Shown here one piece after another: positions 16,225 through 31,702 of a stretch of 39,373 nt of DNA. The DNA is from Candidatus Fimenecus excrementavium (GTDB lineage Bacteria > Bacillota > Clostridia > Oscillospirales > Acutalibacteraceae). The position numbers were made by a program, and so were the translations under genes. The stretch spans positions 1 to 39,373 of the forward strand of contig DVGI01000036.1 in NCBI GenBank assembly GCA_018712805.1, read 5' to 3'. The first letter of the stretch is position 1. Every line of letters begins with the position of its first letter. Below the pieces are notes generated by a model. That model searched no databases and had not been told where the DNA came from. It was given only the letters and a program-made list of their open reading frames with translations.

Positions 16225-16242
16225 TTGTTATATTCCCAACAA
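16225..16242. promoter_or_regulatory. Candidate Rex operator upstream of fucO
   Basis: TTGTTATATTCCCAACAA fits the Rex pattern TTGTTAA-N4-TTAACAA at 11 of 14 defined positions with the outer five bases on each side intact. It lies about 20 bases upstream of the fucO -35 box. It is weaker than the two sites at rex itself. Confidence 0.4.
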
Positions 16243-16261
16243 AAAGTTTACAAATGGATAC

Positions 16262-16290
16262 TTGTTTTCTGTTGGATATTTTGATATGAT
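16262..16290 (+). promoter_or_regulatory. Candidate promoter of the iron alcohol dehydrogenase
   Basis: TTGTTT (16262-16267) and TATGAT (16285-16290) are 17 bases apart, giving a leader of about 60 bases before the start at 16357. It diverges from the regulator promoter. Confidence 0.6.
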
Positions 16291-16356
16291 AATTTTGTAA
16301 CAATCAAGGTTTTCTTTGCCACGAAAGCCTTGAAAATATCAAAAGGAGCGATGAAT

Positions 16357-17505
16357 ATGGCAAACAGATTTGTATTGAACGAAACTTCCTATCATGGCAA
16401 GGGCGCAATCGCAAACATTGCTGACGAAGCGATTGGCCGCGGTTTTCAGAAAGCATTTGTCTGCTCTGACCCGGACCTTTTGAAATTCGGTGTGACCAAA
16501 AAGGTTACGGACATTCTCGACAGCAAAGGGCTGGCTTATGAAATTTATTCCGATATTAAAGCCAACCCCACCATTGAAAACTGCCAGCACGGCGTGGACG
16601 CTTTCAAAGCCTCCGGCGCGGATTATTTGATTGCGATCGGCGGCGGCAGCTCGATGGACACCGCTAAGGCGATCGGTATTGTCGCGGCGAACCCGGAATT
16701 TTATGATATCCGCAGCCTTGAGGGTGTTGCGCCGACCAAGAACAAAGCGAAACCGATTTTTGCCGTGCCGACAACCGCCGGTACCGCTGCGGAAGTCACC
16801 ATTAACTATGTTATTACCGACGCGGAAAAGAACCGCAAAATGGTTTGCGTAGACGTGCACGACATTCCCGTTGTCGCGTTTGTCGACCCCGATATGATGG
16901 CGAGCATGCCCAAAGGGCTGACCGCCGCCACCGGTATGGACGCGCTGACGCACGCAATTGAAGGCTATATCACCAAAGCCGCTTGGGAACTTTCCGATAT
17001 GTTCCACTTAAAAGCGATTGAAATCATTTCCAAGAATCTGCGCGGCGCGGTTGCAAACACGCCGGAAGGCAGAGAAGGCATGGCGCTCGGTCAGTATATC
17101 GCCGGCATGGGCTTCTCGAACGTCGGTCTTGGCATCGTGCACTCTATGGCGCACCCGCTCGGCGCGCTGTATGACACCCCGCACGGTGTGGCGAACGCGA
17201 TTATCCTCCCGACCGTTATGGAATACAACGCGCCCGCAACCGGCGAAAAATACAGAGACATCGCCAAAGCTATGGGCGTTACCGGTGTGGACGACATGTC
17301 GCTGGAAGACGCGCGCAAAGCCGCTGTGGACGCGGTTCGCAAGCTCTCGCAGGACGTCGGCATTCCCGCCGATTTGAGCGAAATCGTCAAACGCGAGGAT
17401 TTGGATTTCTTGGCACAGTCCGCTTATGATGACGCTTGCCGCCCGGGCAACCCGCGCGACACGAGCGTTGCAGAAATCAAAGCGCTTTACGAATCTCTCC
17501 TGTAA
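16357..17505 (+). CDS. fucO: Iron-dependent alcohol dehydrogenase, lactaldehyde reductase (FucO)-like
   Basis: The 382-residue group III alcohol dehydrogenase uses NAD(H) and Fe2+ to interconvert aldehydes and alcohols; the closest remembered relative is L-1,2-propanediol oxidoreductase FucO. The N-terminal Rossmann half has GGGSSMDTAKAIG (95-107). The metal ligands match E. coli FucO one residue out of register: Asp195 and His199 (GMDALTHAIEGY), His262 and His276 (VHSMAHPLGALYDTPHG). The start is put at 16357, with AAAGGAG eight bases upstream. There are no fucose or propanediol genes nearby, so it may serve general aldehyde disposal. It diverges from the Crp/Fnr-ABC operon and ends at a strong terminator. 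Confidence 0.93.
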   Translation: MANRFVLNETSYHGKGAIANIADEAIGRGFQKAFVCSDPDLLKFGVTKKVTDILDSKGLAYEIYSDIKANPTIENCQHGVDAFKASGADYLIAIGGGSSMDTAKAIGIVAANPEFYDIRSLEGVAPTKNKAKPIFAVPTTAGTAAEVTINYVITDAEKNRKMVCVDVHDIPVVAFVDPDMMASMPKGLTAATGMDALTHAIEGYITKAAWELSDMFHLKAIEIISKNLRGAVANTPEGREGMALGQYIAGMGFSNVGLGIVHSMAHPLGALYDTPHGVANAIILPTVMEYNAPATGEKYRDIAKAMGVTGVDDMSLEDARKAAVDAVRKLSQDVGIPADLSEIVKREDLDFLAQSAYDDACRPGNPRDTSVAEIKALYESLL

Positions 17506-20837: not shown

Positions 20838-20867
20838 ACAGGAAACATGCGGTTTATTCAAAAAAAT

Positions 20868-20893
20868 ATCCCGGCAGGAATTTCCGCCGGGAT
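20868..20893 (-). terminator. Terminator of the hydrogenase block
   Basis: Eight-base stem ATCCCGGC (20868-20875) with GCCGGGAT (20886-20893) and a ten-base loop, followed on the minus strand by a seven-U tract. It lies 15 bases after the stop of the last hydrogenase gene and before spoIIR. Confidence 0.9.
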
Positions 20894-20908
20894 AATAGAG
20901 CGTTAAGA

Positions 20909-22360
20909 TTATTTCAGCATGCTGATTGCATCGGTAATGGTTTTTTCCATTGCCTCGCGACCGTACTTGTCCACTTCGTTTTTGTCGCGTGCTTCGTGAG
21001 TAAGGCAGCCTGCGCCGCCGATACAGCCGCCGACGCACGCCATACCCTCGATAAAGTTATTCGGCAAAACACCTTTGGAGGCTTTTAAAAGCGCCAAGCG
21101 GCATTCCTCAATGCCGTCGCAGGCAATCGGCTTGTAATCGAAGTCTAAATTCTGTTCTTTCAAGGACTGCTCAACAGCGTCGCGCAAACCGCCGCTGCGC
21201 GCGAAAATACGGCCGAAATAAGAGGCGTTGTCGAGGACGTCCTCCGGGAACGAGGACATATCAAAGTCGCGGCTGTCAAACAGCGCCTGCAATTCCTCAA
21301 AGGTCAAAACGGAATCGATGATTTTAGCGACGCGCTCTTGTTTGATTTCCATTTTCTTTGCCGTGCACGGCCCGATAAAGACAATCTTTGCCGTTTCGTC
21401 GTGCTTTTTAATGTATTCGGCAATAGACGCCATCGGCGAAAGGTTGTGGGAAATGTGCTCTACCAATTTCGGGAACGATTTGTGGATATAGTCCACAAAC
21501 GCCGGGCAGCAGGAGCTTGTTAAGAAGCCTTTTTCGGCGAGTTCCTGCGCTTCGGAATAAGAAACCATATCCGCGCCGAGCGCCGCTTCAACAACGCTGT
21601 GGAAGCCGAGTTCTTTAATCGCGTAGATCACCTGGCCGAGTTTCGCGTATGTAAACTGGCTGGAAATCGACGGCGCAACAATCGCGTAGGTTTTATATTT
21701 TGTATTGTTTTCGCTCTTTTTCAAAATGTCGATAACATCGAGAATATAGGATTTATCGGCAATCGCACCGAACGGGCACATATATTCGCACGCGCCGCAG
21801 GAAATGCACTTGTCGTTGTTGATATGTGCCGCGCCAATCTCGTCATTGGTCATGGAAATCGCCTTGACCTTGCAGGCTTTTTCACAGGGACGCTTATAGT
21901 TGGAAATGGCGGAATAGGGGCACACTTTTGCGCAGGCGCCGCAGTTGACGCACTTGGTTTTGTCGATATGTGCTTTCTGATTTTCGTCAAAGGTGATTGC
22001 GTCTTTCGGGCAGACATCTTCGCAGCGGTGCGCAATACAGCCGCGGCAGTCATGTGAAACCTGATAGCCGCTGGCGGGGCACTCGTCGCAGGCAATGTCG
22101 ATAACCTCAATGACGTTGGGGTTATTTTTATTGCCGCCGCAAGCCATTTTGATGCGTTCGGCGATAATCGCGCGCTCTTTGTAAATGCAGCAGCGCATTG
22201 TCGCTTTGGGGCCGGGCACGATGACCTTGGCGATATCGTTAAAGCTGTTGGCAAGTTCAAAACCGGAATCACTGTTATAAGCGATTCTTGCGACTTCGCG
22301 CAACACCTTGTATTTCAGATATTGAATTTTGGTGTCAAATTTTCTTCCTTCTTTTCCCAT
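20909..22360 (-). CDS. [FeFe]-hydrogenase-like protein, group B type (ferredoxin domains plus H-cluster domain)
   Basis: The 483-residue protein carries an N-terminal Cys-rich region (C91, C94, C105, C108, C113, C117), ferredoxin-type motifs (CVNCGACAKVCP at 137-148, CISCGACEYMCP at 185-196) and a C-terminal H-cluster domain. The H-cluster motifs are L1 TSSCCPAF (281-288), L2 FIGPCTAKK (328-336) and L3 GMACVGGCIGGAGC (439-452). All four cluster cysteines appear present. This pattern is like the poorly characterised group B [FeFe] hydrogenases. The gene is last in the block, 13 bases after the phosphatase gene, with AAGAGGAG before the start. The order small [2Fe-2S] protein, PAS hydrogenase, SpoIIE-like phosphatase, hydrogenase matches, from memory, the hfsABCD operon of Thermoanaerobacterium. 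It may make or consume H2; activity is not proven. Confidence 0.88.
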   Translation of the reverse strand: MGKEGRKFDTKIQYLKYKVLREVARIAYNSDSGFELANSFNDIAKVIVPGPKATMRCCIYKERAIIAERIKMACGGNKNNPNVIEVIDIACDECPASGYQVSHDCRGCIAHRCEDVCPKDAITFDENQKAHIDKTKCVNCGACAKVCPYSAISNYKRPCEKACKVKAISMTNDEIGAAHINNDKCISCGACEYMCPFGAIADKSYILDVIDILKKSENNTKYKTYAIVAPSISSQFTYAKLGQVIYAIKELGFHSVVEAALGADMVSYSEAQELAEKGFLTSSCCPAFVDYIHKSFPKLVEHISHNLSPMASIAEYIKKHDETAKIVFIGPCTAKKMEIKQERVAKIIDSVLTFEELQALFDSRDFDMSSFPEDVLDNASYFGRIFARSGGLRDAVEQSLKEQNLDFDYKPIACDGIEECRLALLKASKGVLPNNFIEGMACVGGCIGGAGCLTHEARDKNEVDKYGREAMEKTITDAISMLK

Positions 22361-22373
22361 TCCGGATCTCCTC

Positions 22374-23546
22374 TTAAAAATAACTTACTTTTACGCGTTT
22401 TCCCATTTGACGAAGCAGCTCGGAAAGTTCTTCAACCAAATGCATTTTGATGTTAAAGGTAATCGGCAAGTCCGGGTTTTGATGCGCCGGATTGATTGCC
22501 CGCCCGACAAAGAAATTGATGTCGGTCGCTTCTTCAAACAGCATTCGCGAAATTAAAGACGCACCGTCTTCTTTGACATTCCAGTCGGCATAAATATCGT
22601 CTTCCTGCTGGTAGCTTTTCGCCTGTTCCAAAACGCGGCTGAGGGTTATGACGCCCTCGGTGACAAGGTCGACACCTTCAATTTTGGCAATCGGCGGAAT
22701 TTCGGGGTCGACATAATCCAAAAGCGTGGTGACGGGCTTGCCCAAAAACTCACCCGCCAAAGTGGAAGTCGTGCCGCCGCAGACGATGTGTTTCCCCTCT
22801 TTTGCGAAGAACAGAGACATCATTTTGTTGACGTCTTTCGGGTCGCGCGGGGGTCCGAGCATTAAGTTGACGGACTTACGCTGGCGAATTTTCACAGTAC
22901 ATACCGTGGTGTCGTCGCCGGGTTTGCCGCCGTAGAGCTTACAGCACTCGTCTAAAAGCAACGCGGAAACGGTTTTCGCCGTAAATTCGGGGTGCACCAT
23001 TTTTTCTAAAAACTCTACAATCTGTTCGCGCTGCCAGCCGAAATTCATGGTTGTGCCGACGCCCGCCCAAATGGCACCGTCGCTTGTGAACACTAAGAAA
23101 TCATTTTCGTGCAATTCGATTTTGGTTTTATAAATCATCTTGCCGCCGATTTCCATTGCGTTTTTCGGATAATCGAAATTTTTGCCGTCCCGAAGGATTA
23201 TCAACATCGGGTTATCATATTGTATAATTTCTGCTTCCCGGTTGTCAATAGTCCGAACGATGGTAAATGTAGAATATGCCACTTTTCTGACTTCGCAAAT
23301 CGGAAGCGTTGCGGCAATGGTCTCGACGCAGTTTTCAAGGCTCATGCCGTTTGCCATCATCGTGGAAATAATTTTTGACGTGAGCGTGGAAAGAATATTG
23401 GCTTTTACGCCGCTTCCCAAGCCGTCCGCCAAGACGATAACGTGATTTTCTTCGCCCTGGTCAATCACTTCCACCCGGTCGCCGCAAAGCTGTTCGCCGA
23501 ATTTATTGACGCTTTGATACGCAATGTCGGTGCACAAATTATTCAT
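22374..23546 (-). CDS. SpoIIE/PP2C-type serine phosphatase linked to sensory hydrogenase
   Basis: The 390-residue cytoplasmic protein has a PP2C-like (SpoIIE-type) phosphatase domain in residues 1-222, with metal-ligand motifs CGDRVEV (Asp23), LADGLGSG (Asp41), TSDGAIWAG (Asp156) and GKPGDDTTV (Asp211, Asp212). A second domain of about 165 residues (226-390) follows and I do not recognise it. Unlike SpoIIE itself there are no membrane spans. The start overlaps the hydrogenase-PAS gene by eight bases (ATGAATAA), so the two are made together. It probably dephosphorylates a Ser/Thr-phosphorylated partner in response to the sensor. The target is unknown. Confidence 0.88.
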   Translation of the reverse strand: MNNLCTDIAYQSVNKFGEQLCGDRVEVIDQGEENHVIVLADGLGSGVKANILSTLTSKIISTMMANGMSLENCVETIAATLPICEVRKVAYSTFTIVRTIDNREAEIIQYDNPMLIILRDGKNFDYPKNAMEIGGKMIYKTKIELHENDFLVFTSDGAIWAGVGTTMNFGWQREQIVEFLEKMVHPEFTAKTVSALLLDECCKLYGGKPGDDTTVCTVKIRQRKSVNLMLGPPRDPKDVNKMMSLFFAKEGKHIVCGGTTSTLAGEFLGKPVTTLLDYVDPEIPPIAKIEGVDLVTEGVITLSRVLEQAKSYQQEDDIYADWNVKEDGASLISRMLFEEATDINFFVGRAINPAHQNPDLPITFNIKMHLVEELSELLRQMGKRVKVSYF

Positions 23547-25227
23547 CTTTGAGCGACTCCTTTAAGTTGGTCAGCGCAATTTTGGTTTCCGCGGTGGTCT
23601 CGCCCAAAAGAGAAGCGATTTCCTGCACGATTCGCATTTGCTTTTCAATCACCTTGTCGGTGACTTCAATTGTGTGGCGGCTCATTTCCTCTTTCTTGGC
23701 CTTTTCCTCTTCTTCCGCGGTAATATCGCGCATGATGCACATCAAAATATGATAATTGCGGTCGTAAATGATAGTTTCTTCTATGTATTTCTGATATTCC
23801 GCAAGGTAGACGCGCTTGTCGTGAATATTGATGCCGCTCGAAAGCACTTCAATGAAATCAAACGGCTCCATAATCCGAACGACCGGCTCGCCGAGCACAT
23901 CGCTTTGGTTACGGATATTCAGAATGTCCCGCGCCGCGGCATTGATTTGCTGGACTTCCATTTCTTCGTTCAAAATCAAAATACCGTTGGGCGTGTTGTG
24001 AATGATATTGTCGGAGAAAGACTCGGCTTTATCCTTTAAAAACGGCAGGCACATGGAAAGGTCCGCCTTGCCGTCGAGCACCGCCTGCGCTTTTTCGCGG
24101 CAGGTGTTGTAGCCGCAGGAGCCGCAGTTAAGCTCATCTTCGGGGCGGGTCTTACCCATTTTGCGCAGGATTTCTTCAATCGCGCGCGAGCCCGCTTTCG
24201 GATGGTCTTTCTTCAGATAAATCAGATTTTTTTCGATGGTTTCAGGCGCCGGCTGTTTGACCGGGAAATCTTCGCCGTTCGCCTGTTTTGCGAATTTTTC
24301 CACGGCAATCTGCCCGCGGACGGGCGCGCGGTGGGCACGGTCCATCGCCGGACCGCCGACACAGCTACCCGGGCACGCCGACATTTCAATAAAGCAGTGG
24401 TGAATGTTGCCGGCGATTACGTCGCGAATCGCGCTGATACAAGACGACATGCCGTCGACGGTCATATAGGTATAGTCGTCGTTGTCGCAAAGCATGGATT
24501 TTAAAATGCCGCCCGAAGTCGGGAAAAACCGCGCTTTGCCGCGGCGTTCGTCCAATTCCTGCGACGGTTCAAAAGTCACGTTTTCTTCTGCCATCCAGGC
24601 GTTGAGTTCTTCAAAGGTCAGCACGCAATCGACGATGCCTTCGTATTCTTCCGCCTCGGCTTTTTTCGAAATGCAAGGCCCGATGAACACGGTTTTTGCG
24701 TCCGGGTGTTCGCGCTTAATCGAAGCGCAATGCACCTGCATCGGCGACTGGACGCGCGCAAGACACGGGAGCGCTTCGGTAAAATGCTTTTGAATCAGCA
24801 AATTGACCGTATGGCAGCAAGTGGAAATAATCACGTCCTGTTTGCCGGTAGACGCAAGCCGGTCATATTCCTTTTTTACGACGGTTGCGCCCTCGGCGGT
24901 CTCCGCGGCGTCTGTAAACCCGAGCTGCTTCAGCGCTTTTCGCATAGACGCCATATTGACGTTTTCGTAGTTTGCGACAAACGAAGGCGCGACGCTCGCG
25001 TACACCGGCGCACCGCTTTTCAAAAGCGCTTTACAGCTTTGCACATCGTCGCGAATCTCTTTGGCGTTTTGCGGGCAGGCCACAAAGCACATCCCGCAGA
25101 GAATGCACTCGTCTTCCACAATCTGCGCCTGCGTCCCCGAAAAGCTAATGGATTTGACCGGGCAGTTTCGGATACACTTATAGCAGTTTTTGCAGTTCGA
25201 TTTTTTCAGTTTAATATAATTACCCAT
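23539..25227 (-). CDS. Sensory-type [FeFe] hydrogenase with PAS domain (HydS/HfsB-like, group C)
   Basis: The 562-residue protein has two ferredoxin-type clusters (C12, C15, C18, C22 and C41, C44, C47, C51), an H-cluster domain (about 70-310; L1 STCCHT with C137, L2 FIGPCISKK with C185, L3 SACPGSC with C285 and C289), a four-Cys iron-sulfur domain (CGSCGYNTC at 368-376 plus C393), a PAS domain (about 405-505) and a C-terminal coiled-coil-like helix. The usual Pro of L1 is His here. There is no kinase or GGDEF output. This architecture is that of proposed H2-sensing hydrogenases. The output is probably the overlapping phosphatase gene. The start at 25227 has GGAGG seven bases upstream; the frame to 25278 runs into a terminator. 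Confidence 0.9.
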   Translation of the reverse strand: MGNYIKLKKSNCKNCYKCIRNCPVKSISFSGTQAQIVEDECILCGMCFVACPQNAKEIRDDVQSCKALLKSGAPVYASVAPSFVANYENVNMASMRKALKQLGFTDAAETAEGATVVKKEYDRLASTGKQDVIISTCCHTVNLLIQKHFTEALPCLARVQSPMQVHCASIKREHPDAKTVFIGPCISKKAEAEEYEGIVDCVLTFEELNAWMAEENVTFEPSQELDERRGKARFFPTSGGILKSMLCDNDDYTYMTVDGMSSCISAIRDVIAGNIHHCFIEMSACPGSCVGGPAMDRAHRAPVRGQIAVEKFAKQANGEDFPVKQPAPETIEKNLIYLKKDHPKAGSRAIEEILRKMGKTRPEDELNCGSCGYNTCREKAQAVLDGKADLSMCLPFLKDKAESFSDNIIHNTPNGILILNEEMEVQQINAAARDILNIRNQSDVLGEPVVRIMEPFDFIEVLSSGINIHDKRVYLAEYQKYIEETIIYDRNYHILMCIMRDITAEEEEKAKKEEMSRHTIEVTDKVIEKQMRIVQEIASLLGETTAETKIALTNLKESLKDE

Positions 25228-25257
25228 TCCGTTTCCTCCGAATAAGGCTGTTGACGG

Positions 25258-25297
25258 AAAAAAGGCAGTGCGGACCAAAGTCCGTTCCGCACTGCCT
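25258..25297 (-). terminator. Strong intra-block terminator/attenuator before the sensory hydrogenase
   Basis: A perfect 12-base stem (25263-25274 with 25286-25297) with an 11-base loop is followed on the minus strand by a run of six T (25258-25263). It lies six bases after the stop of the small [2Fe-2S] gene and 30 bases before the sensory hydrogenase start. No promoter fits in the remaining gap. An alternative inner stem CGGAC/GTCCG could form in the loop. Confidence 0.85.
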
Positions 25298-25302
25298 GAA
25301 GA

Positions 25303-25542
25303 TTATATTTTAGAAAGAATTTGCGTTTTGAAAAAGTCATCTACCGTTTCGGGAGAAACAGAGAACAGCTCGTCGTTTACCGTCACACTGACGCCGTGCT
25401 GGCAGTTGCCCATGCAGAATTTACCGCTGAGCTCCACTTTGTCTTTTAAGTTGTTTTCGGCAATCAGCGCCTGCAGTCTTTCTACGACCTGGCGCGACCC
25501 TTTCAAATGGCAAGAGCTTCCGATGCAAACTGTTACTTTCAT
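25303..25542 (-). CDS. Small thioredoxin-fold [2Fe-2S] ferredoxin (NuoE C-domain-like)
   Basis: This 79-residue protein corresponds to the C-terminal half of NuoE/HydC-type subunits. It keeps the four cluster cysteines in the usual pattern: Cys6 and Cys11 (VCIGSSC), Cys43 and Cys47 (CMGNC). It probably passes electrons to or from the neighbouring hydrogenases, as the small subunit does in NADH-linked hydrogenase complexes. AAGGAG lies eight bases before the ATG. It follows the APH-fold gene by 33 bases and is followed at once by a strong hairpin terminator. Confidence 0.9.
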   Translation of the reverse strand: MKVTVCIGSSCHLKGSRQVVERLQALIAENNLKDKVELSGKFCMGNCQHGVSVTVNDELFSVSPETVDDFFKTQILSKI

Positions 25543-25575
25543 TGCAGATTCTCCTTATTTATTATCGCTTGCGGC

Positions 25576-26325
25576 TTATTCGTAATCGACAACGTCAAGC
25601 CAGCGGGTAAGCAGCTCTTTTTCTTCCGGGTTGCGCTTGACACTTTGGGAAGCGGCAACAATCGGGAGCCATTTCTGGACGTACTGCTTGGCGGTGTCGC
25701 TCTTTTGGCAGAAGAGGTCCAGGTATTTCTCGGCCAGTTCTTCTTCGCCCTTCAAATAGAACACAAGGTACGTTCTTGCCGCGTCGGCGGAAGCGTTGCC
25801 CTGGGTAGCGTGCGCCCAGTCGATGATATAGTTGACGCCGTCTTCGCCGACGATGACGTTGCTCGGACGGAAATCGCCGTGGCAGACCTTGTTGTGCTTG
25901 GGCATACCCTCTAAGCGGGTGTGCAGCTCATAACGCGTGGTCGCGTCAAGGTCGGTTTCGGAGATTTTCCGGTTCATTTTATCTTTCAGCTTATTAAGCA
26001 GGGGTGCTTTGCGGGAATGAATATCAAGCTGAATATCGACAAACAGATTCATGTATTCGTCGATTTTGTCGGGGTTTTCATCCATCAAACGGGCAAGTGT
26101 TTTACCCTTGATGAATTCCGAAACGATTGCCCATTTGCCGTCAACCACGCCGACTTCCAAAAGCTTCGGAATCGGCAGGCCGGTTTCTTCAACTCTCGCC
26201 TGATTGAGCGCCTCGTTGAGGATATCGGATTTTTTGTAATCCGCATCGAAAACTTTGATGGCACAGTCGCCGTCTTTGTAGACGGTTTTGGATGTTCTTA
26301 CCGCAATAACTTTATCGAGCTTCAT
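25576..26325 (-). CDS. APH/ChoK-fold phosphotransferase-like protein
   Basis: The 249-residue protein has the aminoglycoside/choline-kinase fold. The N-lobe has VSEFIKGKTLARLM, the hinge region of the family. The C-lobe has the catalytic loop CHGDFRPSN (Brenner motif, catalytic Asp in HGD) and YIIDWAHATQG, the metal-binding DxD-type segment. Family members phosphorylate small molecules or, in some cases, proteins. Nothing points to antibiotic resistance here. It lies 14 bases after adhE, with AGGAGG before its start, inside the rex-adhE-hydrogenase block, which suggests a role in that pathway. The substrate is unknown. Confidence 0.8.
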   Translation of the reverse strand: MKLDKVIAVRTSKTVYKDGDCAIKVFDADYKKSDILNEALNQARVEETGLPIPKLLEVGVVDGKWAIVSEFIKGKTLARLMDENPDKIDEYMNLFVDIQLDIHSRKAPLLNKLKDKMNRKISETDLDATTRYELHTRLEGMPKHNKVCHGDFRPSNVIVGEDGVNYIIDWAHATQGNASADAARTYLVFYLKGEEELAEKYLDLFCQKSDTAKQYVQKWLPIVAASQSVKRNPEEKELLTRWLDVVDYE

Positions 26326-26339
26326 TCTGATTCCTCCTG

Positions 26340-28949
26340 TTATTCACCGTAATATGCCTTGAGATACATCTCTTTGATTTCGCTCATCAGCGGATATCTC
26401 GGGTTCGCGCCCGTGCACTGGTCGTTGAACGCCTGCTCAACCATTTCATCCAGCGTATCCAAGAAGTATTTTTCATCTACGCCGTAATCGCGGATGGTCT
26501 TTTTGATGCCGATGTGCTCTTTGAGTTCATCGAGCTTTGCAATCAGGTTTTCAAGCTTCTCTTCGTTGGTCTTGCCGGTTACGCCGAGCGCGTCTGCGAC
26601 TTCGCAGTATCTTTCCAAGGTGTGCGGGTGGTCATACTGGGAGAAAGTACCCATCTTGGTGGGAACTTCCGCTGCGTTAAAGCGCAGAACATGGTCAATC
26701 AGCAGTGCGTTTGCAATACCGTGCGGCAGGTGGTGGAACGCGCCGAGTTTGTGCGCCATGGAGTGGCAAACACCGAGGAACGCGTTGGCAAACGCCATAC
26801 CGGCCATAGTTGCCGCGTTGCCCATTTTTTCACGGGCAACCGGGTCGGTCTGACCGTTGTCATAGGCTCTGGGCAGGTACTGGAAAATCATTTGCAAAGC
26901 GCGAATGGCAAGACCGTCGGTATAGTCGGTTGCCATAATCGAAGCGTAAGCTTCGAGCGCGTGGGTAACAGCGTCGATACCGGAAGCAGAGGTAAGGCCT
27001 TTCGGTGCGCTCATCATCATATCCGCATCAACGATTGCCATATTCGGCAGAAGCTGATAGTCGGCAAGCGGCCATTTCACGCCGGTGTCTGCATCGGTGA
27101 TGATTGCAAACGGGGTAACTTCAGAGCCGGTACCCGCGGAGGTCGGAATCGCGATGAAGTAAGCTTTTTCGCCCATCTTCGGGAAGGTGTAGATTCTCTT
27201 GCGGATGTCCATGAAGTCCATAGCCATGTCGGAGAAGTCCACGTCGGGGTGTTCATACATCACCCACATGATTTTTGCAGCGTCCATTGCGGAACCGCCG
27301 CCGATGGCGATGATGGTATCCGGCTGGAACTGGGTCATCTGGTCAGTACCCTTTCTCGCGCACTGGAGCGTCGGGTCGGGAGCAACTTCATAGAAGCAAG
27401 TGTGCTGAATGCCCATTTCGTCGAGCTTCTCTTCAATCGGCTTGGTGTAGCCGTTATTGTAAAGGAACGAGTCGGTAACAATAAACGCCTTTTTCTTGCC
27501 CATGACCGTTTTCAGTTCGTCAAGCGCAACAGGCAGGCAGCCTTTTTTGAAATACACCTTTTCGGGTGCGCGGAACCACAGCATATTTTCCCTTCTTTCG
27601 GCAACGGTTTTGATATTCAACAGATGTTTGACACCGACGTTTTCGGAAACCGAGTTGCCGCCCCAGGAGCCGCAGCCGAGTGTCAGAGAGGGTGCCAGTT
27701 TGAAGTTGTAAAGGTCGCCGATACCGCCTTGAGAAGAAGGTGTGTTGACAAGAATACGGCAGGTCTTCATCCGCTCGCCGAACTCCGCAAGCTTTGCCTG
27801 TTCGGTGATGGGGTTTAAGTACACGGAAGAGGTGTGACCGTAACCGCCGTCAGCAATGAGGTGTTCCGCCTTATCGAGCGCGTCGGAGAAATCCTTTGCC
27901 TTATACATAGCAAGAACAGGAGACAGCTTTTCGTGTGCGAATTCTTCGGAAATATCTACGCTTTCGACTTCACCGATTAAAACCTTGGTGGTTTCGGGTA
28001 CGGTAACGCCGGCGAGCTGTGCAATCTTGTAAGCGGGCTGACCGACGATTTTCGCGTTCAGCGCGCCGTTGATGATAATGGTCTTTCTGACTTTATCAAT
28101 TTCGCCTTTTTTCAGGAAATAGCAGCCGCGCGCTAAGAATTCGTCTTTGACTTTCTTATAGACTTTGTCAAGCACGATAACGGACTGCTCGGAAGCGCAA
28201 ATCATACCGTTATCGAACGTTTTGGAGTGGATAATCGAGTTGACGGCCAAAAGAATGTCCGCGGTGTCGTCGATAATCGCCGGGGTATTGCCCGCGCCGA
28301 CGCCGAGCGCCGGTTTACCGGAAGAATACGCCGACTTGACCATGCCGGGGCCGCCGGTTGCAAGGATGATGTCCGCTTCTTTCATCAAAAGCGTGGTCAT
28401 TTCCAAAGACGGAATGTCAATCCAGCCGATGATGCCCTCGGGTGCGCCGGCTTCGACCGCCGCTTCCAACACAACTTTCGCCGCGGCGATGGTGGATTTT
28501 TTCGCACGCGGGTGGGGGCTGATGATGATACCGTTTCTGGTTTTCAGGGAGATAAGCGTTTTAAAAATCGCCGTTGAGGTGGGGTTGGTGGTCGGGATAA
28601 CCGCCGCAACAACACCGATGGGCTCAGCAATCTTTTTGATGCCGTAAGCCTTATCCTCTTCGACTACACCGCAGGTCTTGGTGTTTTTGTAAGCGTTGTA
28701 AATATATTCCGCCGCATAGTGGTTTTTGATAACCTTATCTTCGACCACGCCCATGCCGGTCTCTTCGACCGCCATTTTGGCAAGCGGGATACGCTGTTTG
28801 TTTGCGGCAATCGCGGCAGCGCGGAAGATCTTATCGACCTGCTCCTGCGAATATGTCGCGAAGACTGCCTGCGCCTCGCGGACCCGTTTCAATGTTTTTT
28901 CAAGCATTTCAACAGAATCGACGATTTCGTAAGTCTTTGCATTTTCCAT
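26340..28949 (-). CDS. adhE: Bifunctional acetaldehyde-CoA/alcohol dehydrogenase
   Basis: AdhE reduces acetyl-CoA to acetaldehyde and then ethanol, oxidising two NADH, and forms spirosomes. The 869-residue protein has an N-terminal aldehyde dehydrogenase domain (catalytic Cys in NGMICASEQS) and a C-terminal iron alcohol dehydrogenase (GGGSAMDAAK, SGIDAVTHALEAY, CHSMAHKLGAFHHLPHG). Both halves look complete. I start it at 28949, where AAAGGAG lies ten bases upstream; the TTG three codons earlier is too close to that site. The ribosome site lies within the last codons of rex and the start is only five bases after the rex stop, so the genes form one operon under Rex control. Confidence 0.97.
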   Translation of the reverse strand: MENAKTYEIVDSVEMLEKTLKRVREAQAVFATYSQEQVDKIFRAAAIAANKQRIPLAKMAVEETGMGVVEDKVIKNHYAAEYIYNAYKNTKTCGVVEEDKAYGIKKIAEPIGVVAAVIPTTNPTSTAIFKTLISLKTRNGIIISPHPRAKKSTIAAAKVVLEAAVEAGAPEGIIGWIDIPSLEMTTLLMKEADIILATGGPGMVKSAYSSGKPALGVGAGNTPAIIDDTADILLAVNSIIHSKTFDNGMICASEQSVIVLDKVYKKVKDEFLARGCYFLKKGEIDKVRKTIIINGALNAKIVGQPAYKIAQLAGVTVPETTKVLIGEVESVDISEEFAHEKLSPVLAMYKAKDFSDALDKAEHLIADGGYGHTSSVYLNPITEQAKLAEFGERMKTCRILVNTPSSQGGIGDLYNFKLAPSLTLGCGSWGGNSVSENVGVKHLLNIKTVAERRENMLWFRAPEKVYFKKGCLPVALDELKTVMGKKKAFIVTDSFLYNNGYTKPIEEKLDEMGIQHTCFYEVAPDPTLQCARKGTDQMTQFQPDTIIAIGGGSAMDAAKIMWVMYEHPDVDFSDMAMDFMDIRKRIYTFPKMGEKAYFIAIPTSAGTGSEVTPFAIITDADTGVKWPLADYQLLPNMAIVDADMMMSAPKGLTSASGIDAVTHALEAYASIMATDYTDGLAIRALQMIFQYLPRAYDNGQTDPVAREKMGNAATMAGMAFANAFLGVCHSMAHKLGAFHHLPHGIANALLIDHVLRFNAAEVPTKMGTFSQYDHPHTLERYCEVADALGVTGKTNEEKLENLIAKLDELKEHIGIKKTIRDYGVDEKYFLDTLDEMVEQAFNDQCTGANPRYPLMSEIKEMYLKAYYGE

Positions 28950-28954
28950 TGTAC

Positions 28955-29638
28955 TCAATCTCCTTTGCTCCTGGTTTCAGGATTGTTTGTCATGGTTTTT
29001 TTCAGATGGGCGGACAACACCGCAAGCGACGACGCTATGTTTTCATTTTGCAGCAAGATGCCTTGCGGCACGGTAATATGCGTCGGTGCAAAATTGAGAA
29101 TTGCCCGGATTCCGCAGGCGACCAGCTTGTCACAAACCGCTTGCGCGCTTTCGGCGGGGACGGTCACAATGCCGATGTGAATCCGCATTCGTTCGCAGAG
29201 GTCTTCGAGTTTTTCCATTGGGAAAATCCGTTGTTCTGTGCCGAATGTCTGCGCGGTAAGGGTTTCGTCGGTGTCGAACGCGGCGACGATATGCACGCCG
29301 TATTCCGCAAAGCCTTTGTAGTTCAAAAGCGCTCTTCCGAGCTGCCCGGCGCCGACCAAAACCGCTTCGTTGACATTGTCATAGCCCAAGAAAGACTCTA
29401 AGTCCCGCACGAGCTGCGTTGTGTCAAACCCCGTTTTCGGTTTGCCTGCACACGAACTGACAAAAGCGATATCCTTTCTCACCTGAACCTCGTTTTGCCC
29501 CAAGGCGGCGGCAATCTTCGGCGCAGAGACCGTTTGAACGCCTTCGCTTTGCAGTTTTTTAAGGTAATTCAGATAATTGGGCAACCTCAAAAGCGCCTGC
29601 CTGGATATGCCCTGCACAGTGTTTTTCGAGTTGCGCAT
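28955..29638 (-). CDS. rex: Redox-sensing transcriptional repressor Rex
   Basis: Rex binds DNA when NADH/NAD+ is low and lets go when NADH rises, switching on fermentative genes. The 227-residue protein has the N-terminal winged helix (about 1-80, with ISRQALLRLPNYLNYLKKL and VQVRKDIAFVS) and a Rossmann NAD(H)-binding domain (VLVGAGQLGRALLNY, then FDTDE). The C-terminal swapped helix is present. AGGAG lies 11 bases before the ATG. It is the first gene of the block and two Rex-type operators overlap or flank its promoter, so it represses itself and adhE. Confidence 0.95.
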   Translation of the reverse strand: MRNSKNTVQGISRQALLRLPNYLNYLKKLQSEGVQTVSAPKIAAALGQNEVQVRKDIAFVSSCAGKPKTGFDTTQLVRDLESFLGYDNVNEAVLVGAGQLGRALLNYKGFAEYGVHIVAAFDTDETLTAQTFGTEQRIFPMEKLEDLCERMRIHIGIVTVPAESAQAVCDKLVACGIRAILNFAPTHITVPQGILLQNENIASSLAVLSAHLKKTMTNNPETRSKGD

Positions 29639-29677
29639 TTGGCATTTCGCTCCTATCAGTATTTTCGTATTGATTTA

Positions 29678-29706
29678 ATCATAGTCCATTGTTAAATAAT
29701 TGTCAA
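29678..29706 (-). promoter_or_regulatory. Promoter of the rex-adhE operon
   Basis: On the minus strand a perfect TTGACA (29701-29706) is 17 bases from TATGAT (29678-29683). The first Rex operator covers the -35 box and most of the spacer. Confidence 0.9.
29689..29706. promoter_or_regulatory. Rex operator 1 (overlapping the rex -35 box)
   Basis: TTGTTAAATAATTGTCAA matches TTGTTAA-N4-TTAACAA at 12 of 14 defined positions and overlaps the promoter, as expected for repression. Confidence 0.75.
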
Positions 29707-29713
29707 TGGTAAT

Positions 29714-29731
29714 TTGTTAATCTTTTAACAT
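29714..29731. promoter_or_regulatory. Rex operator 2 (upstream of the rex promoter)
   Basis: TTGTTAATCTTTTAACAT matches the Rex consensus at 13 of 14 defined positions. Its centre lies 25 bases from that of operator 1. Confidence 0.8.
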
Positions 29732-29966: not shown

Positions 29967-31301
29967 TTATATACCGAGAATCATAGACGCGACGCGGAAA
30001 TAGATAAGGAGGGAAAGCGCGTCGACAATCGTTGTGATAAACGGACTTGCCATAACGGCGGGGTCAAAGTGGAGACGTTTTGCCAAAATCGGCAGCGTGC
30101 AGCCGATGAACTTCGCCAAAATAATGGTTAAGACCATGGTGACGCAAACAACGGCGGCGACCATAACACCGACACGGTCGATTAACAGCATTTTGCCGAA
30201 GTTGACAAGCGCCAGCGTAACACCGCAAAGGAACGCCACGCGAAATTCTTTCCAAATGACGTGGAATGTGTCGCGGAACGTGATGTCACCCAAAGAAAGG
30301 CCGCGGATAATTGTAACTGAGGACTGCCCGCCGCAGTTGCCGCCGGTGTCCATCAGCATCGGGATAAACGCGGTCAAAACGACGTAAGACTGCAAGGCAT
30401 CTTCAAAGTGGGTGATGATTTTGCCGGTAAAGGTGGCGGAAACCATCAACAATAAAAGCCACGGGAAGCGCTTTTTCCACGTTTCAAAAACGGACATTTT
30501 CAGATACGGCTTGTCCGTAGGCGTGATAGCCGCCATCTTTTCAATGTCTTCGGTGTTCTCGTCCTGCAAGACGTCCATCGCATCGTCGATGGTGACAATA
30601 CCGACCAAGCGGTTTTCCTGGTCAACGACCGGCAGCGCCAAAAGGTCATATTTGCGGAATTTTTCCGCGACGATTTCTTTATCTTCCAGCGTGTTGGCGG
30701 AAATGATATTGGTATCCATGATTTCAAAGATTTTTGCGTTTTTTTCAGAGAGCAGCAAATCTTTGACGGTCACTATCCCCAACAGCTTACGGTTTTCGTC
30801 GGTGACGTAACAAATATAAATCGTTTCTTTGTCGACGCCGGTGCGGCGGATGCGGGTAAAAGCATCTTCCACGGTCATGTATTTTTTTAAGTCGACATAT
30901 TCAATCGTCATAATGCTGCCGGCGGAATCCTCCGGGTATTGGAGAATTTCATTGATGCTTTTGCGCACCTCTGGGTCTGTGTGCATCAAAATGCGTTTGA
31001 CAACCGTTGCCGGCATTTCTTCAATGATGTCGACCGCGTCGTCGACATATAATTCGTCTAAAACTTCGCGCAGCTCGTTATCGCTGAAAGCGCGGATTAA
31101 AAACTCCTGCGCGTCGGAATCCATATTGACGAACACTTCCGCCGCAAGTTCTTTTGGCAAAATACGGTATAACAGCGGCAGTTTTTCCTGCGGCAGTTCT
31201 TTGAGCACCGCCGCAATATCCGCTTCGTTCATTTCGGAAAGCAGATTTTTAAGCTCAGAATATTTCTTTTCGTCTAACAATGCAAGGATTTGATCGTACA
31301 C
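29967..31301 (-). CDS. mgtE: Magnesium transporter MgtE
   Basis: MgtE is a Mg2+-gated channel-like importer. The 444-residue protein has an N-terminal helical superhelix domain (1-125), tandem CBS domains (about 130-250, with EDSAGSIMTIEYV and LPVVDQENRLVGIVTIDDAMDV), a connecting helix and five membrane spans (about 280-444). The pore region has PMLMDTGGNCGGQSSV. The start is GTG at 31301 with AGGAGGG eight bases upstream. The long leader carries an M-box riboswitch, a terminator hairpin and a small ORF, so expression should rise when Mg2+ is low. Confidence 0.96.
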   Translation of the reverse strand: MYDQILALLDEKKYSELKNLLSEMNEADIAAVLKELPQEKLPLLYRILPKELAAEVFVNMDSDAQEFLIRAFSDNELREVLDELYVDDAVDIIEEMPATVVKRILMHTDPEVRKSINEILQYPEDSAGSIMTIEYVDLKKYMTVEDAFTRIRRTGVDKETIYICYVTDENRKLLGIVTVKDLLLSEKNAKIFEIMDTNIISANTLEDKEIVAEKFRKYDLLALPVVDQENRLVGIVTIDDAMDVLQDENTEDIEKMAAITPTDKPYLKMSVFETWKKRFPWLLLLMVSATFTGKIITHFEDALQSYVVLTAFIPMLMDTGGNCGGQSSVTIIRGLSLGDITFRDTFHVIWKEFRVAFLCGVTLALVNFGKMLLIDRVGVMVAAVVCVTMVLTIILAKFIGCTLPILAKRLHFDPAVMASPFITTIVDALSLLIYFRVASMILGI

Positions 31302-31521: not shown

Positions 31522-31540
31522 ATTTTTTCGCATTATGGTT

Positions 31541-31702
31541 TCGTTCAAGCTTTAGCTTCAGAGGGCATGTAACTGCGTTAAAACACACCTTGTTTTTTCG
31601 ATGTGCCCTGTTGACCTGCTGACGGTGTCTCCACCGTTTCGCGGCAGCAGCCCGTATCCCTGTGGGAGCCTTACCTACCGATATTTTTTAGGCTTGTCTA
31701 TT
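31541..31702 (-). promoter_or_regulatory. M-box (ykoK-type) Mg2+ riboswitch
   Basis: On the minus strand the conserved M-box blocks appear in order: GGTAGGTAAGGCTCCCACAG (31660-31679), then GATACGGGCTGCTGCC, GAGACACCGTCAGCAGGTCAAC, CGCAGTTACATGCCC and the closing GAAGCTAAAGCTTGAACG. These match the known ykoK leader consensus as I remember it. Mg2+ binding should favour the downstream terminator and turn mgtE off. The exact ends are approximate. Confidence 0.92.

Follow-up and report, generated by a model that had tools for sequence, protein, structure and literature searches.

Rumen ecology and biofuel work have long asked how hydrogen pressure steers fermentation towards ethanol or towards acetate and hydrogen. 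In Ruminococcus albus 7, an eight-gene HydA2/AdhE/HydS cluster has been proposed to exert hydrogen-sensing control over ethanol versus hydrogen formation, and the cluster was 111-fold lower in co-culture with a hydrogen consumer (PMC6776011). In Clostridium thermocellum, genes Cthe_0422-0432 are co-regulated and all went down together after furfural (PMC3848806); Cthe_0422 is named a homologue of the second Rex, Rex_1799 (PMC8457756), and Cthe_0425-0426 rose 9.9- and 11.0-fold on poplar (PMC3848806, PMC3561251, PMC3990059). In the hfs operon of Thermoanaerobacterium, HfsB is a PAS-hydrogenase, HfsC is serine-phosphatase-like and HfsD is a ferredoxin-linked hydrogenase (PMC11837493). Deletion of hfsA or hfsB raised the adhE transcript and ethanol, with hfsC and hfsD being needed; deletion of hfsB also raised hydrogenase activity, and it raised ethanol in C. 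thermocellum too, where hfs is Clo1313_1796-1793 (PMC5707799). Our subject here is a cluster of this kind, which houses the proposed hydrogen sensor and has already been described in other bacteria that live in the gut or degrade cellulose. It is a block of seven genes from Candidatus Fimenecus excrementavium (GenBank assembly GCA_018712805.1), and it lies on contig DVGI01000036.1, of which positions 1 to 39,373 form the window, that is, the whole stretch of DNA analysed (39,373 nucleotides).

With somewhat better than even confidence, we read the block as one of the known clostridial redox clusters of HydS/Hfs type, here linked to an ethanol unit under Rex control. What is new in this analysis is that its third gene, encoding a kinase-like protein with the fold of aminoglycoside phosphotransferases (APH), tracks adhE rather than the genes for HydS and the phosphatase. 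The seven genes run along the minus strand, starting at 29638 and ending at 20909. Pfam and NCBIfam profiles, applied against curated cut-offs, confirmed the seven co-directional genes and the families that a preliminary description of this DNA had given them:

28955..29638, minus strand: rex, NADH/NAD-sensing repressor (NF003994, 267 bits, cut-off 130)
26340..28958, minus strand: adhE, bifunctional acetaldehyde/alcohol dehydrogenase (NF010378, 1405.8 bits, cut-off 951)
25576..26325, minus strand: APH-fold kinase-like protein, 249 aa (PF01636, 56.9 bits, cut-off 23.2)
25303..25542, minus strand: [2Fe-2S] thioredoxin-like protein, 79 aa (2Fe-2S_thioredx, 33.8 bits, cut-off 24.8)
23539..25227, minus strand: hydS, PAS-hydrogenase of group C / M2f type (Fe_hyd_lg_C, 4Fe-4S and PAS)
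22374..23546, minus strand: soluble SpoIIE/PP2C phosphatase (SpoIIE, 55 bits, cut-off 25)
20909..22360, minus strand: hydA2/hfsD-like group-B monomeric [FeFe] hydrogenase (TIGR04105, 556.5 bits, cut-off 450)

The overlaps and short gaps first described also held. With the starts chosen here, the spacings from rex to hydA are a 4-bp overlap (rex/adhE), 14 bp, 33 bp, 75 bp, an 8-bp overlap (hydS/PP2C) and 13 bp, and the 75-bp gap holds a terminator. The start of hydS is an ATG chosen in the analysis; the mechanical open reading frame (ORF) opens upstream at a TTG. In a whole-genome search at E<=0.001, the only Rex was that of the block.

Distribution and neighbourhood of the APH gene

APH loci were collected by scanning contigs with the APH alignment and keeping the best 80 of 582 relatives, ranked by APH similarity alone; the set samples the closest APH homologues, with titles including Eubacterium, Butyrivibrio, Ruminococcus, Saccharofermentans and Acetivibrio. 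All seven genes occurred in the window order at 23 of the 80 loci (the script counted 24; L097 was dropped, its hydA match being a cross-match to hydS), and many other loci were cut by contig ends. The link of rex-adhE to the kinase-like gene, which the preliminary description had taken to be new, is thus broadly syntenic and has an equivalent in C. thermocellum (PMC3848806). The search for co-occurrence of APH, HydS and phosphatase in related genomes excluded a synteny limited to this genome.

The immediate upstream neighbour of APH was adhE in 76 of the 79 loci with at least 300 bp of upstream sequence. Among the 61 loci with at least 3.5 kb of downstream sequence, HydS and PP2C followed APH in 41, and 20 had adhE-APH without HydS. 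Where at least 4.2 kb was also available upstream, rex was found there in 24 of 30 HydS-bearing versus 3 of 18 HydS-less loci, which associates rex with the HydS-bearing form.

We then counted genes across a class set of 291 genomes, in which APH was present in 66, close AdhE (at least 64% identity; weaker AdhE, at about 46–51%, was left out) in 90 and HydS (E<=1e-60) in 91. APH and AdhE occurred together in 62 genomes, APH only in 4, AdhE only in 28 and neither in 197, an odds ratio of 109, whereas the same four counts for APH and HydS were 33, 33, 58 and 167, an odds ratio of 2.9 (p 0.0004); these counts and the Fisher tests on them ignore shared ancestry, and the sets may share species. Of the 66 APH genomes, 57 had adhE no more than 400 bp from APH, and 22 had HydS no more than 2.5 kb away. 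A HydS match at the same threshold was absent from 32 of the 57 adhE-APH genomes, 20 of these 32 being at least 97% complete. In a family set of 80 genomes, with AdhE taken at 72% identity or above, 27 had both APH and AdhE, 5 APH only, 2 AdhE only and 46 neither; for APH and HydS the numbers were 15, 17, 11 and 37. Genomes G024 and G077 keep APH and adhE on different contigs and have no HydS match, and in G020 and G030 it is APH and the HydS unit that lie on different contigs. APH was present in 45 of 181 genera and across many families of the class set.

Neighbours of APH were surveyed in 16 of 20 regions, and beyond adhE, hydA (on the same strand, in L139 and L156) and an ABC-type ATPase, no family appeared in more than two of the 16. 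The other four regions (L143, L146, L152 and L155) were left out of the survey because the longest-ORF filter took an overlapping ORF on the opposite strand; tblastn finds APH and adhE in each of them, 0.02 to 1.9 kb apart.

Several observations weigh against a Rex-controlled ethanol unit to which APH belongs. A long-inherited adhE-APH operon would score high in counts that ignore ancestry, even without a functional tie, and 28 of the 90 close-AdhE genomes are without APH. HydS also stands beside APH at two thirds of the loci whose downstream sequence is long enough (the 41 of 61), and APH and HydS co-occur above chance, so some APH-HydS link is possible. Four APH genomes yielded no close AdhE (G205, G256, G313 and G339), and in three of them HydS is adjacent; APH lies no more than 2.3 kb from the contig start in G205, G256 and G339, which is not so in G313, where APH adjoins HydS. 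G003 (L139, 8765-11767) has rex, APH and hydA as consecutive genes, with neither adhE nor HydS. The literature searched, with most subscription journals outside it, held no report linking the APH gene to AdhE. Finally, Rex-like sites with at most three mismatches number 5 in the window, compared with a shuffle mean of 2.8, and 12 of 100 shuffles reach 5; this is not above chance, and the case for Rex rests on the position of its sites and on relatives.

Active site and possible functions of the APH-fold protein

The APH alignment has 140 rows, in which the window stands twice and other overlaps are probable. Lys24, Glu38, His149-Gly-Asp151, Asn156 and Asp169 are all present in the window protein. 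Lys24 and Glu38 are invariant in the 138 rows that have letters there, and His149, Gly150, Asn156, Asp169 and Trp170 are invariant over all 140. Residue 151 is Asp in 132 rows and Asn in 8, and these 8 form one clade with support 1.0 (L021, L023 and L025-L030), whose other active-site residues are invariant. With HGN for HGD, this is a possible pseudokinase clade; given the general properties of the fold, the Asn-151 form would be catalytically impaired. At 4 of the 8 loci the APH gene immediately precedes adhE on the same strand, whereas 120 of 131 Asp-form loci have the opposite order. No adhE occurs within the 1.5-kb flanks of the remaining four; in those genomes adhE lies about 2 kb (G068) or 6 kb (G007) downstream, 51 kb off (G017) or on another contig (G077).

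Because co-occurrence and adjacency favour AdhE over HydS, and because APH adjoins adhE at 4 of the 8 Asn-clade loci, the APH-fold protein is probably an AdhE-linked regulator or a metabolite kinase. We tentatively suggest that many ethanol-forming Clostridia may carry a dedicated APH-fold regulator of AdhE beside adhE, independent of the hydrogen sensor, which would mostly be a protein or metabolite kinase and, in the Asn clade, an ATP-binding pseudokinase. If this were true, the APH-fold protein would control AdhE post-translationally at a point so far overlooked.

It is also possible, although we hold it with limited confidence, that the protein is a non-signalling small-molecule kinase carried with adhE, acting for example on an alcohol or a damaged cofactor. 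Its predicted model (mean pLDDT 90.3) finds its best solved-structure matches, among the 50 listed of 1990, in APH enzymes and LicA choline kinase, and the linkage to adhE is independent of HydS. Genome G048 (L147, 9359-12436), which has no AdhE or HydS match at the thresholds used, has APH followed by a pyruvate-formate-lyase-type gene. However, a clade with Asn in the position of the catalytic Asp, which keeps the Lys, the Glu, the Asn and the Asp of DW, would be odd for a needed catalyst, and none of the 12 matched NCBIfam families reaches its cut-off. A reading of the gene as antibiotic resistance was rejected, the APH(3') family NF033068 giving 29.7 bits against a cut-off of 205.

The preliminary description had made the APH-fold protein a protein kinase opposing the PP2C phosphatase, the two together forming a HydS-controlled phospho-switch, and this now appears unlikely. 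Such a role would fit the position of APH beside HydS and PP2C in the window and in two thirds of the scored loci, the above-chance co-occurrence with HydS, the active-site residues of the window protein, and a path from the HydS PAS domain to an adjacent Ser/Thr kinase that PMC5707799 credits to Zheng et al. 2014. It would also fit a match to RIO1 at 30.3 bits, above the Pfam cut-off of 22, although no single RIO1 stretch passes alone. Yet more than half of the adhE-APH genomes (32 of 57) have no HydS match, 58 of the 91 HydS genomes are without APH, and G020 and G030 hold APH and the HydS unit apart. By both sequence and fold, the protein best matches APH and choline kinases; among sequence matches in the PDB, Ser/Thr kinases come at E 0.005–0.009, behind choline kinase at 1.8e-6. 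The association is mainly with AdhE, and an above-chance link to HydS remains.

That the adhE-APH adjacency is an inherited operon remnant, in which APH plays no role in fermentation control, is a reading that the ancestry-blind counts would allow but that we consider improbable, given the spread of APH over so many genera and families, its retention where it is unlinked from adhE, and the two gene orders seen.

Rex-like sites, hydrogenases and the phosphatase

Upstream of rex, two operator-like sites and a promoter-like site were found by matching the Rex consensus taken from PMC8457756 and the sigma-70 consensus. Two terminators are also predicted:

29714..29731, no strand assigned: Rex-operator-like site, 1 mismatch to TTGTTAANNNNTTAACAA (consensus match)
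29689..29706, no strand assigned: second Rex-operator-like site, 2 mismatches, over the -35 box of the promoter-like site
29678..29706, minus strand: sigma-70-like promoter upstream of rex, TTGACA-17-TATGAT, 11/12 (consensus match only)
25258..25296, minus strand: putative intrinsic terminator or attenuator in the gap that separates hydS from the [2Fe-2S] gene (perfect 10-bp stem, 13-nt loop, six T)
20867..20894, minus strand: predicted intrinsic terminator closing the block (11-pair stem)

Both parts of a Rex-AdhE regulon unit, Rex and an upstream operator-like site to which it would bind, are thus present. In relatives, sites with at most two mismatches occurred within 250 bp upstream of adhE at 31 of 64 loci, compared with 0.5% of mononucleotide shuffles, and within 250 bp upstream of rex at 8 of 29, compared with 1.4%. 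The same search found none upstream of APH (0/79), hydS (0/54) or hydA (0/55). A genome-wide scan allowing up to two mismatches gave 20 sites, versus 13 for a control pattern; this is too near chance, and we therefore list no genome-wide Rex targets. Elsewhere in the window, a lactaldehyde-reductase-type iron alcohol dehydrogenase gene (16225-17505, plus strand) has two weak Rex-like sites, each with three mismatches, within about 105 bp upstream, where the same window-wide count, not above chance, applies.

A terminator in the 75-bp gap before hydS makes two transcription units, or attenuated read-through, possible. It looks like a local feature, because in our scan none of 54 relatives had a terminator-like element at that gap. 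As a separate observation on the [2Fe-2S] gene, a loose count put at least two such genes at 38 of the 54 loci that carry HydS (for example L063, L074, L077 and L081), typically one about 70% and one about 43% identical to the single copy of the window.

HydS has several features of a sensory hydrogenase. Its alignment has 73 rows, with the window entered twice (as window and as L031) and species likely repeated between collections. The H-cluster domain scores 164.9 bits with PF02906; Cys138, 185, 285 and 289 are invariant in 73/73 rows, as are both 4Fe-4S motifs and Cys368, 371, 376 and 393 of the C-terminal Cx2Cx4Cx16C, a motif of sensory hydrogenases (PMC8163306). The PAS domain scores 23.4 bits (Pfam cut-off 22.6). 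At the positions of CpI M353 and M497 the window protein has Gly and Ser, the residues reported for TmHydS; at the second of these, some distant rows have a residue other than Ser. The proton-transfer cysteine (CpI position C299) is kept in 60 of the 73 rows, including that of the window, and is replaced by Ala in 9 and Ser in 4; it is present in 17% of sensory enzymes in HydDB (PMC10055695), so this HydS lineage is a cysteine-keeping one. A reading of hydrogen by HydS is plausible and has already been published. That HydS instead does catalysis, as a component of a composite hydrogenase that also includes the [2Fe-2S] protein and HydA, seems doubtful, for although HfsABC has been raised as a possible functional hydrogenase (PMC13277313) and the cysteine is so widely kept, the PAS domain, the C-terminal cluster, the Ser and Gly shared with TmHydS and the hfsA and hfsB deletion phenotypes (PMC5707799) all argue otherwise.

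The genome encodes four PF02906 proteins, two of them in the window. Of the others, classed by our reading of sequence and neighbours, a 583-aa protein on contig C22, beside a NuoF-like protein, looks like part of a bifurcating HydABC set, and a 438-aa protein on C23, which ends soon after the C-terminal cysteine motif, looks like a PAS-less group D enzyme.

The phosphatase protein consists of a phosphatase domain (residues ~1-220) and a conserved alpha/beta domain (~222-390). By sequence profile, positions 12-220 match SpoIIE. The structure model predicted for the protein (mean pLDDT 81.5) also matches SpoIIE, as well as other PP2C structures, in alignments spanning about 226 columns. Asp 23, 41, 156, 211 and 212, which we take to form the metal site, are invariant in 30 rows. 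The C-terminal domain (169 residues, 22377-22883, minus strand) has invariant GG, D-x-x-T-E-G and N-x-A-H and may bind a target or ligand. Taken alone, the window copy had no Pfam match at E<=1, and the 50 whole-protein fold matches listed of 1241 were all of PP2C type, with none for this domain. Its best sequence match in the PDB, phosphoheptose isomerase 3trj (E 0.0014), was set aside as too weak to name a fold.

Upstream of the block, an M-box magnesium riboswitch (31528-31689, minus strand, 91.5 bits) precedes the magnesium transporter gene mgtE (29967-31301), an ordinary pair.

A proposed mechanism and its relation to known clusters

We envisage the following sequence of events. Rex would repress rex-adhE-APH-[2Fe-2S] until NADH/NAD rises, as the two operator-like sites over the promoter suggest. 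The H-cluster of HydS would read hydrogen or redox state and relay a signal to the PAS domain by way of the Cx2Cx4Cx16C cluster, a step modelled on the domain order and on published relatives. PAS output would then determine how active the neighbouring PP2C phosphatase is, and the target of that phosphatase would tune hydrogenase and adhE output; the overlapping, usually paired genes and the hfs genetics are consistent with this. In this genome the terminator ahead of hydS probably reduces expression of hydS-PP2C-hydA or sets it apart.

The last step is our main new inference: the APH-fold protein would belong functionally with AdhE and would not mainly be the phosphatase's partner. Either AdhE or a metabolite linked to its flux may be the target, and on AdhE the protein may work as a kinase or as a regulator that binds ATP; the metabolite branch alone corresponds to the small-molecule kinase considered above. 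That APH follows AdhE more than the sensor points to seeking an effect on AdhE itself. In an organism other than that of the window, NADH-ADH activity rose while NADH-ALDH activity was unchanged, and post-transcriptional control of AdhE was suggested (PMC5707799). Ethanol versus hydrogen as the controlled choice, as the preliminary description had it, finds support in PMC6776011 and PMC5707799.

The block resembles each of the described systems in part. With TmHydS, a group C sensory enzyme (PMC10055695), HydS shares the PAS domain and the residues at the positions of CpI M497 and M353, Ser and Gly respectively; unlike the window protein and most rows of our alignment, TmHydS has Ala at the position of the proton-transfer cysteine. 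With hfsABCD of Thermoanaerobacterium the block shares the PAS-hydrogenase, the phosphatase and the ferredoxin-linked hydrogenase, and its [2Fe-2S] gene stands at the place matching hfsA. The likeness to hfs noted at the outset is borne out by the descriptions of HfsB, HfsC and HfsD (PMC11837493), and the tandem order of PAS-hydrogenase, PP2C and hydrogenase recurs in relatives. In T. saccharolyticum, by contrast, a reported neighbour of adhE is tsac_0415, of unknown function, and hfs is treated as a separate operon.

The R. albus 7 cluster likewise brings together AdhE, a sensory PAS hydrogenase, a phosphatase and a ferredoxin-only hydrogenase (PMC6776011). Judged by gene number, it would be consistent with the common eight-gene order rex-adhE-APH-2x[2Fe-2S]-HydS-PP2C-HydA, whereas in the window there is a single [2Fe-2S] gene, and hydS is preceded by a terminator. 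The R. albus 7 hydrogenase is called group A1 (PMC6776011); that of the window meets a group-B model.

In C. thermocellum the shared genes are rex, adhE, an "aminoglycoside phosphotransferase" (Cthe_0424), an Fe-S protein and SpoIIE (Cthe_0427) (PMC3848806), together with a sensory hydrogenase, 0425-0426 (PMC3848806, PMC3561251, PMC3990059). The next hydrogenase there differs, being trimeric and bifurcating (0428-0430) and not monomeric group B. Given hfs at Clo1313_1796-1793, adhE and APH of C. thermocellum would be Clo1313_1798 and Clo1313_1797. Among our APH loci, Acetivibrio straminisolvens (L117) has the same gene order as the C. thermocellum region.

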